Part shown: piece by piece, positions 16,266 through 20,359 of the stretch | How the letters are laid out: each line of letters opens with the position of its first letter | Numbering within the stretch: the stretch's first letter is position 1 | Assembly (NCBI RefSeq): GCF_037996825.1 | Contig: NZ_JBBNAC010000001.1 | Span: 744,001 to 808,000 of the forward strand | Length of the DNA: 64,000 nt | Source of the DNA: Bdellovibrio sp. BCCA | GTDB lineage: Bacteria > Bdellovibrionota > Bdellovibrionia > Bdellovibrionales > Bdellovibrionaceae | Direction of reading: 5' to 3' | Notes under the pieces: generated by a model | Database searches by the model: none | Seen by the model: only the letters and a program-made list of their open reading frames with translations | What the model was told of the DNA's origin: nothing | Translations under genes and position numbers: made by a program

Positions 16266-16752
16266 GTTGTAGTTCTCCTTTAAAAGGTGTCAAAATTCGA
16301 AACCAAGCTTTCAAACGACGAAACGTTTTAGATTTCCGCGATTGCGGAAAAGAGCGAGTCAGTAAGCGAACCATAGACTCCCGCCCAAAAGCCTCCGCAT
16401 ACATAAGAGCAGTTTGATTGTTATTATTCTTAGCAAGAGGATCAGCACCAGCAGCTAAAAGAAGACGAGCAATCTCATCATGACCTTTAAACGCAACACC
16501 CATCAAAATAGTGCTGCCACCCAAATCACGAGAATTCACATCAGCCCCATAACGAATCAACTGAGGAACAAGAAGAAGGTGCCCATTGTAGGCAGCCAGC
16601 ATCAACAAAGAATGCCCTTTATGATTCTTAAGATTAGGATCTCCACCCTGAGCCAAATAAAAAATAACTCTCTCTACATTCCCATCCCGAACAAACCCAA
16701 AAACCTCAGGCTCAACCGAAACCGTCCGCAAATAATCAGCCCACTTCCTCAT
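16255..16752 (-). CDS. Ankyrin-repeat protein, catalase partner
   Basis: 165 aa with about four ankyrin repeats, for example [40 protein letters not shown] and [19 protein letters not shown], and a basic C-terminal tail. GGAGG lies 4 bases before the ATG. It overlaps katA by 11 bases and is transcribed first. The arrangement matches ankB-katB of Pseudomonas aeruginosa, where AnkB supports catalase activity; no signal peptide or membrane anchor is visible here, so a cytoplasmic chaperone or haem-loading role is the likeliest inference. Confidence 0.88.
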
Positions 16753-16807
16753 AAGACCTCCAAGTCACATAAGTAAGATCGGCGATTTAAGAACATAAAT
16801 CGAATCG

Positions 16808-16840
16808 ATAGTTTATATAAACGATATAGATTTAAACTAT
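16808..16840 (-). promoter_or_regulatory. AT-rich dyad, candidate operator/promoter of the ankyrin-catalase operon
   Basis: ATAGTTTA (16808-16815) and TAAACTAT (16833-16840) form an inverted repeat, and the perfect palindrome GTTTATATAAAC lies at 16811-16822. The dyad is 56-88 bases upstream of the ankyrin start, a suitable place for control by a peroxide regulator such as PerR or OxyR. It does not match either consensus closely. The rest of the 16753-17032 spacer shows nothing else I can name. Confidence 0.4.
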
Positions 16841-17032
16841 ATGGCGGAAAGCTCTGCTGAAAGAGCCCAGGGCACCTCCCAAAAGCGCAAGCCAGAAAAC
16901 CACGCAAAAGAAACACGAGATCCCGCAAACCCTGTGCACCATTTGTTCCTAATTTGTTTCTTACCGTGAAAAAGCCAATCAAGACTTCCGTCTCGTAGCC
17001 ACGGACCAGAAACCAAAGTTAGACTAACAAAT

Positions 17033-17338
17033 ATGTCGTACACAAAGTTCGCAGTAGGTCTCCGTCGTTTCTTAAATCATCCGGGTCGGGTGGCGGGCGT
17101 TTGCATGATCGTCTTCTCCGTCTCTATCGTTCTCAACGGAAACGTCTTCCGTCTGTGGGGCTTGCATCGAGATATGGATCGCATTAACGCAGAGATTCAG
17201 CAGACTCGCGAAAACATTGCGTCTCTTTCGGGACAGCTTAAGCAGGCCAAAGATCCAGCCTTTATCGAACGTCAGGCTCGCGATAAATTAGATCTGGCCG
17301 GTGAACACGACCTTGTCTTTGTTTTCCCTGAACAATAG
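17033..17338 (+). CDS. ftsB: FtsB/DivIC-type septum formation initiator
   Basis: 101 aa with a short cytoplasmic N-terminus, one membrane segment (about 20-40, VAGVCMIVFSVSIVLNG), a coiled coil (about 45-75, RDMDRINAEIQQTRENIASL) and the typical end AKDPAFIERQARDKLDLAGEHDLVFVFP in outline. This is the topology of FtsB/DivIC, which bridges FtsL and FtsQ in the divisome. In many proteobacteria it is found near eno, and eno lies 2.3 kb away here. No strong ribosome binding site is visible before the ATG. Confidence 0.88.
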   Translation: MSYTKFAVGLRRFLNHPGRVAGVCMIVFSVSIVLNGNVFRLWGLHRDMDRINAEIQQTRENIASLSGQLKQAKDPAFIERQARDKLDLAGEHDLVFVFPEQ

Positions 17339-17364
17339 TCCATAACCCATCGCATAAAAGCGTG

Positions 17365-17387
17365 CTAGTTGGATATAATACAACTAG
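17365..17387 (+). promoter_or_regulatory. Inverted repeat around a TATAAT box upstream of the HTH gene
   Basis: CTAGTTG (17365-17371) and CAACTAG (17381-17387) are perfect inverted arms around GATATAATA, which contains a consensus -10 box. It lies about 50 bases before the HTH-protein start and could be an autoregulatory operator. No good -35 box is seen. Confidence 0.5.
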
Positions 17388-17437
17388 TATTCTGACTCTA
17401 TTCGCCACTACTTTATGAAGTGAATTTAGGGGTTTAT

Positions 17438-17737
17438 ATGGTTGATAATCATTCATTGGACTGGAACAAAGAAGCTCTTCGCGCTCTACGCCTTCGCATG
17501 GGTTGGAGCAGATCAGATCTCGCTCGCAGACTTCATTGTTCTTCTGAAGAAGTCGACTCTTGGGAAGAAGGAATTTCCAATATCGAAGCCAATATCAAAA
17601 ACGAACTGGAGCTGATTCTTCGCCAAGCGGAAGAGTGCTGTGATGAAGTGATGTACACTCCCGCGGCAGAAAATGAGTGTGCTAAGCAAGCTCTCGCACA
17701 AATTGATTTTTCACGCGTCAAACTAGACTTAGAGTAA
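17438..17737 (+). CDS. Small XRE-type helix-turn-helix protein
   Basis: 99 aa; residues about 13-60 form a Cro/C1-type HTH (ALRLRMGWSRSDLARRLHCS, then VDSWEEGIS), followed by a short helical tail. The ATG at 17438 has AGGGG 5 bases upstream and is preferred over the in-frame GTG at 17420. A dyad with a -10 box precedes it, suggesting autoregulation. It lies 54 bases before polA, with a hairpin in between. Target genes unknown. Confidence 0.8.
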   Translation: MVDNHSLDWNKEALRALRLRMGWSRSDLARRLHCSSEEVDSWEEGISNIEANIKNELELILRQAEECCDEVMYTPAAENECAKQALAQIDFSRVKLDLE

Positions 17738-17750
17738 TCGACAACAAAGC

Positions 17751-17787
17751 TCTCCCAGTGTTAGGAATATGTTTTTGCACTGGGAGA
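17751..17787 (+). promoter_or_regulatory. Hairpin sequestering the polA ribosome binding site
   Basis: TCTCCCAGTG (17751-17760) pairs perfectly with CACTGGGAGA (17778-17787) over a 17-base loop. The right arm contains GGGAG, the polA Shine-Dalgarno sequence, 5 bases before the ATG at 17792. No T-run follows, so it is not a standard terminator. Confidence 0.65.
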
Positions 17788-17791
17788 CAAT

Positions 17792-20359
17792 ATGAAAAAA
17801 CTCTATCTCGTGGACGTCAGTGCCATGTTTTTCCGAGCGTATTACGCAATTCGCTCTTTGACGGCTCCATCGGGTTTACCTGTCAACGCCATCTACGGAT
17901 TTTTATCGATGATGATCAAGCTTCTCAAAGAAGAGAAGCCTGAGTACCTAGTTTTTTGCTACGATCGTAAAGAGCCTTCATTCCGCAAAGATTTATACGA
18001 CGGCTACAAAGCCCATCGCAATGAGATGCCGGAAGACTTGGCCAAACAAGTTCCTTACATCAAAAAAATCGCTGAACTTTTGGGAGTGCCTTCTTACGAA
18101 GTCGCGGGTTTTGAAGCCGACGACATCATTGGTTCACTGACGAAGTGGGGCCGCCATCACGACATGGAAGTTTTCATCGTGAGCGGTGATAAAGACTTCG
18201 GGCAGTTGATCAACAAGCACGTGTGGCTCTACGACACCATGAAAGACGTGCGCTACGACGCTCAAGGCGTTTTCGAAAAATGGGGCATCTATCCTGAGCA
18301 ATTTATCGACTATCTTTCTATTGTAGGCGACGCCTCTGATAACGTGCCCGGAGTTAAAGGTATTGGTGAAAAGGGTGCGATCAAACTTCTCGAGCAATTT
18401 AAAACGCTCGAAAATATTTACGAGAATATCGACAAGGTTGAGAGCAAAAGCGTTCGTGAAAAACTGATCGCTTCTAAAGACAATGCCTTCTTGTCAAAAA
18501 AACTAGTCACGATTTCCACGGATGTTCCTGTTTCCGATGACTATAACAGCTACAGATTGACGCCGTTGCATACAGAAGAATTGCGCGCGCTTTTGCACGA
18601 GCTGAACTTTAAATCATTCGAAAAAAGTTTATTCGGAGCCACGACTCCAGACGTAGCCGCTCCTGTTAAAAAAACAGTGGATATGCCAGCTGTCGGAGTT
18701 CCAGAAGGAGAGATTCAGCCGACTCTGGTAATTGCAAAAGACGATAAAGAATTCCAAGAAAGAACAATCACAACGAAAGAACTCGCTGCTGTTTTAAAAG
18801 AAAATCAAGTGCTTTGGGGTTTCTCGGATACACGGGGTGTGTTTGTTGGAACTGAACAAGAACTTTTTGAAGTTTCCGATTTTGAATACCTTGGAAAACT
18901 CACAGACACATTCCACATTCGTTGGAGCGGATTTGACCTAAAAACTTTCTGGCATAAAATCGGCGCCAAAGATCCGATCGCGGGATGGGATTCTCAGCTT
19001 GCAGCTTACGTGCTGAAAGCCGGTGATGCCGCAGACTTTGGCAAGATGTATACGAAGTACATGTTAGAAACTTTGCCGGACCTAGCTCCGCCCTCGGCTC
19101 TTTACAATGCACATAGAAATTTCGCAGCGACATTGTCAGGACGACTGAAGTCTCTTCACGGAGAAAAAGTTTACCAAGAGTTAGAGCTTCCTTTGGAGCG
19201 CGTTCTTCTTTCTATGGAACGCTGGGGAATTCGTATTGACAAAGATCTTTTGGCGAAACAAAGCGCAGAGCTTGAAACTGAAATCGCTGCTCTTGAAAAA
19301 CAAATCCACTCTGAAGCCGGAGAGGCTTTCAATGTTGGAAGTCCTAAGCAGTTGGGTGTTATTCTGTTTGAAAAACTGAAACTACCCGCAGGTAAGAAAA
19401 CAAAAACGGGTTATTCGACGGGAGAAGAAGTTCTTACAGAACTTGACCATCCTATTGCAAAACTGGTTTTGAAATGGCGTGAACTTTCTAAGCTCAAGTC
19501 TACTTACGTTGATGCCTTACCTGAAATGATCAATCCTAAAGATGAGCGTGTGCATACAAGATTTAATCAGGCGCTCACGATGACGGGACGCCTTTCAAGT
19601 ACAGATCCGAACCTACAGAATATTCCAATTCGTACGGCTCGCGGTCAGCAAGTTCGCCAGGCTTTTGTGGCGGCTCCAAGAATGAAATTATTGTCGGTGG
19701 ACTATTCACAGATCGAGCTTCGTATCTTGGCACATATTTCAGAAGATCCAAATTTGATCAAAGCCTTCCAAGAAGATTTGGATATTCACTCTGCCACGGC
19801 TGCGGAAATCTATGGCCTGCCTTTGACAGAAGTCACTTCAGAGCTTCGTCGTTCTGCAAAGGCGGTGAACTTCGGTATTGCGTACGGACAAGGGGCTTTC
19901 GGTCTTGCGGAAAATTTGGGAATTTCCCGATCCGAAGCCAAAGATATTATTGATCGTTATTTCGCGCGCTTTAAAAACGTGCGTGACTACATCGAAAGCA
20001 CAATCAAAACGGCTCACGAGCAAGGTTATGTAGAAACATTGTTTGGTCGTCGCCGTTACATCGAAGAACTTCAGTCTAAAAACATGATGCTGAAAAAATT
20101 CGGAGAGCGTGCTGCGATCAATGCGCCTATTCAGGGAACTGCGAGTGATCTGGTGAAAAAGGCCATGATCGAAGTTTACGAAAAAGTTCCAGTGCGTATG
20201 CTTTTACAAGTGCATGACGAATTGATTTTTGAAGGAACGGAAGAAGACTTGAATAAGCACACTCCAGAGCTTGTTTCCATAATGGAAAACGTCACTCAGT
20301 TGAAAGTGCCTTTGAAAGTAAATTACGCCATCGGAAACAACTGGGATGAGGCCCATTAA
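17792..20359 (+). CDS. polA: DNA polymerase I
   Basis: 855 aa in three parts. The 5'-3' nuclease (1-290) carries LVDVSAMFFRAYYA, FEADDIIGSL, SGDKDFGQL and GDASDNVPGVKGIG. A central 3'-5' exonuclease-fold domain (about 315-490) appears degenerate: its first acidic motif (DxE) reads WGFSDTRG, though WDSQLAAYVL resembles a later motif. The polymerase domain (500-855) has motif A with D637 (LSVDYSQIELR), motif B/O helix RRSAKAVNFGIAYGQG (about 686-701) and motif C QVHDEL (H808, D809). It repairs gaps and removes Okazaki primers. Proofreading is probably lost. GGGAG before the ATG lies in a hairpin. Confidence 0.96.
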   Translation: MKKLYLVDVSAMFFRAYYAIRSLTAPSGLPVNAIYGFLSMMIKLLKEEKPEYLVFCYDRKEPSFRKDLYDGYKAHRNEMPEDLAKQVPYIKKIAELLGVPSYEVAGFEADDIIGSLTKWGRHHDMEVFIVSGDKDFGQLINKHVWLYDTMKDVRYDAQGVFEKWGIYPEQFIDYLSIVGDASDNVPGVKGIGEKGAIKLLEQFKTLENIYENIDKVESKSVREKLIASKDNAFLSKKLVTISTDVPVSDDYNSYRLTPLHTEELRALLHELNFKSFEKSLFGATTPDVAAPVKKTVDMPAVGVPEGEIQPTLVIAKDDKEFQERTITTKELAAVLKENQVLWGFSDTRGVFVGTEQELFEVSDFEYLGKLTDTFHIRWSGFDLKTFWHKIGAKDPIAGWDSQLAAYVLKAGDAADFGKMYTKYMLETLPDLAPPSALYNAHRNFAATLSGRLKSLHGEKVYQELELPLERVLLSMERWGIRIDKDLLAKQSAELETEIAALEKQIHSEAGEAFNVGSPKQLGVILFEKLKLPAGKKTKTGYSTGEEVLTELDHPIAKLVLKWRELSKLKSTYVDALPEMINPKDERVHTRFNQALTMTGRLSSTDPNLQNIPIRTARGQQVRQAFVAAPRMKLLSVDYSQIELRILAHISEDPNLIKAFQEDLDIHSATAAEIYGLPLTEVTSELRRSAKAVNFGIAYGQGAFGLAENLGISRSEAKDIIDRYFARFKNVRDYIESTIKTAHEQGYVETLFGRRRYIEELQSKNMMLKKFGERAAINAPIQGTASDLVKKAMIEVYEKVPVRMLLQVHDELIFEGTEEDLNKHTPELVSIMENVTQLKVPLKVNYAIGNNWDEAH

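Follow-up and report, generated by a model that had tools for sequence, protein, structure and literature searches.

The hairpin that precedes polA in the window (a stretch of 64,000 nucleotides from Bdellovibrio sp. BCCA) is real, and it probably acts as a translational insulator nested with the promoter of the gene. The hairpin, the covariation of its arms, the conserved boxes beside them, the abutting upstream gene and the lack of a terminator are all seen in the sequence. We infer the transcription start, the readthrough, the silencing and the purpose as follows: RNA polymerase that uses the polA promoter would start in the loop, at about position 17774, and produce an mRNA with an 18-nt leader and a free Shine-Dalgarno (SD) sequence, while polymerase arriving from the upstream HTH gene would copy both arms, so that the hairpin would fold and hide the SD. 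On such readthrough RNA polA would be translated poorly or not at all, and its translation would be essentially restricted to RNA of its own promoter.

The stem comprises ten perfect pairs between a left arm, TCTCCCAGTG (17751-17760, forward strand), and a right arm, CACTGGGAGA (17778-17787, forward strand), both read directly, and the minimum-energy fold adds an eleventh pair (U.G). An SD-like GGGAGA (17782-17787) lies within the right arm at a proper spacing from the polA ATG (17792-17794), with which the interval 17751-17794 closes. The sequence-only reading had placed the SD of polA in the right arm of a perfect 10-bp stem; this was confirmed by reading the sequence, and the sequestration of the SD is supported by the covariation tests given below. 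The gene itself (17792-20359, forward strand) encodes a DNA polymerase I of 855 amino acids with the Pfam domains DNA_pol_A and 5_3_exonuc. The fold of a 161-nt region around the hairpin has a z score of -2.65, and one of 200 dinucleotide shuffles was equally stable. For comparison we used a genome sample of 464 kb (the window and 20 stretches of 20 kb) with 276 called genes, whose starts come from a purpose-written simple caller and not from the annotation. The perfect SD-covering stem of polA is among the three longest of these 276 genes (10 bp; the others have 11 bp and 10 bp), and the cost of opening its SD (17.3 kcal/mol vs a sample mean of 5.1) is one of the two highest.

Each of the 24 genus genomes possesses polA, and in every one of them a hairpin can form directly before its start. 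On the second contig (C2, 209 kb, perhaps a plasmid) of G000, the genome of the window, there is also L025, a short partial match to the N-terminus of polA with 26% identity in a frame of 339 aa. The two arms of the hairpin vary in concert: where the window has CTCCC and GGGAG, L011 has GGCCT and AGGCC. Because the right arms stood out of register in a MAFFT alignment of the leaders (20 of the 24 sequences, the near-duplicates L004, L007, L012 and L022 being left out), we relied on arm swaps instead of pair counts or a covariance model: in this alignment-free test each left arm is paired with every right arm. Cognate arms reached a mean of -19.6 kcal/mol, compared to -12.8 +/- 0.98 for swapped arms (12 distinct groups), and none of 20,000 permutations matched the cognate pairing. 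With a uniform window and with our own sequence's group left out, the result was equally clear (z = -5.7, 0/20,000; 13 groups). Control starts in the same 24 loci showed no covariation, neither that of the HTH gene (z = +0.16) nor that of an ftsB/divIC-like gene (z = -1.2). The conservation of paired positions in relatives, which the sequence-only reading had proposed as a check, is therefore borne out. Left positions 11-14 and 21 each show four or five pair types, G.U included, across the 21 distinct elements, and this variety speaks for RNA and against a DNA site. The SD is predicted to be held in the stem in 19 of these 21 elements, with a mean probability of being unpaired of at most 0.26; for the element and opening-cost analyses L016 was given a GTG start that lies in frame 15 nt further upstream. 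Chance alone often yields SD-covering stems of 6-7 bp, and a functionless inverted repeat could be imagined on that ground, but covarying arms kept throughout the genus and the negative control starts make such a coincidence scarcely credible.

The left arm lies within the spacer of a predicted promoter. Just 5' of it stands TCGACA (17738-17743, forward strand), the predicted -35 box, which is identical in 24 of 24 genus genomes and corresponds in position to a TTGACA-like box in the order. A TA box follows 17 nt after TCGACA, or 18 nt in L001, L009 and L015, whereas the distance from TCGACA to the ATG varies from 37 to 68 nt with the loop and the right side (24 genomes in both cases). The near-fixed spacing between TCGACA and TA is the geometry of a putative promoter. 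In the window the predicted -10 box is a weak TAGGAA (17762-17767, forward strand), assigned from the TA spacing in the genus and from the homologous TA box in the order. The transcription start is predicted at 17774 (forward strand; +/- about 2 nt), a position within the loop that was set, by homology with leaderless relatives in the order, 12 nt downstream of the T in the TA box; in the other genus genomes it would fall in the loop or at the very beginning of the right arm and give leaders of 16-24 nt. A strict sigma-70 scan of 16700-17900 found no promoter; the -35 box deviates from TTGACA and the -10 box of the window is weak. Sigma-70 consensus promoters are functional in B. bacteriovorus (PMC12622784), and the published start map, which covers attack-phase promoters only, does not mention polA in its main text (PMC3627812).

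Alternatively, TCGACA and a downstream TGTA could form the operator of a transcription factor, perhaps of the neighbouring HTH protein, with the hairpin as a mere by-product. TCGACA and TGTAGA do resemble an inverted repeat with a near-fixed spacing of 15 nt in many genomes, and the HTH gene adjoins the site. A DNA site, however, leaves unexplained why the arms covary outside the boxes, and the relatives show the geometry of -35 and -10 boxes, so that we regard an operator as very unlikely. As a genome-wide operator pattern TCGACA-N15-TGTA was rejected: it has a single match, on the second contig, vs nine for the reversed pattern. The polA of the window reads TGTT and hence is no exact match.

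The promoter reading draws on the polA genes of the rest of the order, for which we used 77 loci: 38 of 42 genomes of the family outside the genus (three gave no match and G055 lacks the N-terminus) and 39 of 74 genomes of other families (40 were fetched, and L284 was too short). L036 and L265, whose starts are unresolved, are counted among the 77, and L051 is partly N. An SD precedes polA in 13 of these 77 loci vs 21 of 24 within the genus. In 28 of the 77 TA precedes the start by exactly 6 nt, and in another 14 by 7 nt (other offsets counted: 1-10 loci each). When the 52 loci in which TA precedes the start by 5-9 nt were aligned on this TA, the columns from -23 to -18 read T75 T56 G67 A56 C50 A37 per cent: a TTGACA-like -35 box at 17-nt spacing emerged, although it had not been used for selection. 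On average the best match to TTGACA covers 3.77 of 6 letters in these loci, compared to 2.2-2.7 at shifted positions, and TCGACA itself occupies the -35 place in five of them (L028, L040, L044, L269 and L270). Boxes so close to the start point to a sigma-70-like polA promoter that would begin transcription at or near the A of the ATG in much of the order, and the polA mRNA appears to be near-leaderless there (L026-L064, L248-L287). Judged by sequence only, polA of the order relatives has what characterizes leaderless genes: a -10 box some 6 nt ahead of the start codon and, mostly, no SD. Within the genus, L010 (G005), whose leader is predicted at about 2 nt, lacks the SD and nonetheless keeps the hairpin. 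Its state, close to leaderless, fits the promoter reading, while its hairpin is unexplained by an insulator function.

Upstream of the promoter lies the HTH gene (17438-17737, forward strand), a weak match to the Pfam families HTH_31/HTH_3, whose stop adjoins the polA promoter. It is co-directional with polA, and in each of the 24 genomes its end lies 0-29 nt upstream of TCGACA. With so short a distance and with no T run after the stem in any of the 24 genomes there is hardly space for a terminator; a terminator scan at the window locus found none either, and the hairpin itself was rejected as an intrinsic terminator on both counts. Since the predicted promoter overlaps the left arm, RNA begun at about 17774 would be devoid of this arm and unable to form the hairpin. 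The predicted costs of opening the SD differ in the same sense, at 11.4 kcal/mol in readthrough RNA vs 4.1 in RNA of the own promoter. The median difference is 8.1, and readthrough RNA has the higher cost in 22 of 23 genomes, L009 being the exception in which it is not raised. The separation is not complete: in L002, L007 and L024 the SD of the readthrough RNA is only partly hidden, and in own-promoter RNA the SD is still partly paired (mean predicted probability of being unpaired 0.28, vs 0.13 in readthrough).

The position of the HTH stop codon, 51-85 nt upstream of the annotated polA ATG, would also suit translational coupling, in which ribosomes ending the HTH gene open the hairpin and thereby link polA to this gene. 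A ribosome at the stop would mostly remain short of the left arm, though, the distance is variable, and a promoter of its own, as predicted, would make coupling unnecessary for polA; we consider coupling highly improbable.

The sequence-only reading had made the translation of polA dependent on an event that opens the hairpin. In its fullest form this reading implies a main polA mRNA whose 5' end precedes the left arm and whose SD is sequestered until it is released, by temperature, by a protein, by a small RNA or by RNA processing, when the predator replicates. The SD would indeed be hidden in any RNA that bears both arms, but the left arm is bracketed by conserved boxes of fixed spacing, and polA of other members of the order has homologous boxes. 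In addition, the stems are stable and of differing sequence, with no common ligand core besides the promoter boxes, and the window has no Rfam match at the gathering threshold, a result on which a known riboswitch or Rfam leader was rejected as well. Regulated sequestration on the main mRNA is therefore unlikely, and the dependence on an opening event is not upheld: with the predicted promoter overlapping the left arm, only readthrough RNA from the HTH gene would be able to fold. Temperature is an unlikely opener of stems that combine length and a high G+C content with mostly perfect pairing. An RNA thermometer was rejected: in the window, ten perfect pairs and an SD opening cost of 15.4 kcal/mol at 37 C are at odds with marginal stability. 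A caution follows for similar cases: a hairpin that covers an SD in genomic sequence may be absent from the relevant mRNA, and the promoter should be located first.

Under the insulator reading, the near-leaderless mRNAs of the order relatives, with their promoter at the start codon, would likewise be translated mainly as RNA of the own promoter, and Bdellovibrio apparently gained an SD-bearing leader together with an arm that preserves the older rule. We put forward only tentatively, and lean slightly against, the broader idea that one old Bdellovibrionales rule, translation of polA exclusively from its own promoter, is realized by two means (near-leaderless mRNA vs nested hairpin) and that the nested design recurs on other Bdellovibrio genes. 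If true, a gene of replication and repair has kept promoter-exclusive translation across the switch from a leaderless to an SD-led mRNA. Chromosomal neighbours without a terminator between them would then be insulated at the level of translation by an arm hidden in the promoter, and packed co-directional genes could be expressed separately without terminators. The arrangement may be connected with the predatory cycle, as the upstream operon might be on when polA is unwanted.

Several known systems resemble this arrangement in part. In RNA thermometers and translational riboswitches a stem likewise holds the SD; the stem of polA differs in being long and stable, in having no Rfam counterpart and in the promoter predicted over its left arm. 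The transposase genes of IS10 and IS50 are protected by fold-back structures against transcription from outside: as proposed for polA, their start is hidden in readthrough RNA and exposed in RNA of their own promoter, but they belong to mobile elements and the arm comes from the element's end. Leaderless mRNAs are matched by the relatives' polA, with its promoter predicted at the start codon, whereas polA of Bdellovibrio would have a short SD leader, except in G005. SD-sequestering leaders on long transcripts, with a late promoter in the 5' portion of the structure, are described for T4 gene e (lysozyme), soc, 49 and I-TevI and for mobE of phage Aeh1, and the long early RNA of gene e and I-TevI is poorly translated (PMC3014915, PMC2988022). 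As described there, the gene e type has the layout that we predict for polA: the SD is in the 3' arm and the promoter at the 5' part, the short RNA is free of the structure and the readthrough RNA folds. In contrast to the T4 genes, polA is a chromosomal housekeeping gene with a predicted sigma-70-like promoter, and its arrangement is conserved in the genus and apparently replaces the near-leaderless state of the relatives. The logic itself is known from phage; new would be its use on a chromosomal housekeeping gene, as a chromosomal counterpart of the T4 scheme. The open-access full-text literature searched yielded no chromosomal housekeeping counterpart, which is weak evidence of absence.

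Stems of at least 8 bp that cover an SD are in modest excess in the genome of the window and in G004, and hardly so in G013 or the outgroup. In the 464-kb sample they occur in 6 of 214 SD genes, compared to a mean of 1.7 and a maximum of 4 in 20 rounds with swapped upstream halves; against chimeric sequences the counts are 6/241 vs 1.6 in the own genome, 6/239 vs 1.6 in G004, 2/208 vs 1.4 in G013 and 3/166 vs 1.7 in the outgroup G044. Nested pairing behind promoter-like boxes gave p = 0.036 in the own genome, 0.70 in G004 and 0.022 in the outgroup, and for G013 0.18 when judged by energy and 0.003 when judged by stem count. Promoter-nested hairpins are unsupported as a genome-wide rule.

Four further genes, chosen for their SD stems in the genome of the window, were subjected to arm swaps without the window's group, and covariation held up in two of them. 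It is as strong as that of polA in a prolyl oligopeptidase gene (z = -5.1, 0/20,000; 13 loci, L137-L149), on which the nested design would recur clearly, and weaker in a tolC-like gene (z = -2.6, 179/20,000), on which it would recur in a patchy manner. Covariation was not upheld for pyrE (z = -1.6, 1,135/20,000) and for an ABC-F gene (z = -0.9, 3,650/20,000). Excluded from these tests were the orthologues L150-L154 and distant matches of the prolyl oligopeptidase (in L146 no start codon was found), L164 and L165 of the tolC-like gene (short flanks), and L133 and L134 of ABC-F (incomplete matches). In the prolyl oligopeptidase-like gene (L085, 7173-9296, reverse strand) the SD hairpin measures 11 bp, and a TAGAAT-like box is situated at its left arm. 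In the tolC-like gene (L074, 8102-9442, reverse strand; orthologues L163-L185) TTGACA is followed by the left arm, TATAAC and then the SD-bearing right arm; its promoter, of the type TTGACA-N16/17-AATAAT, is conserved, and the hairpin is present in some species only, e.g. L163, L169, L170 and L178.
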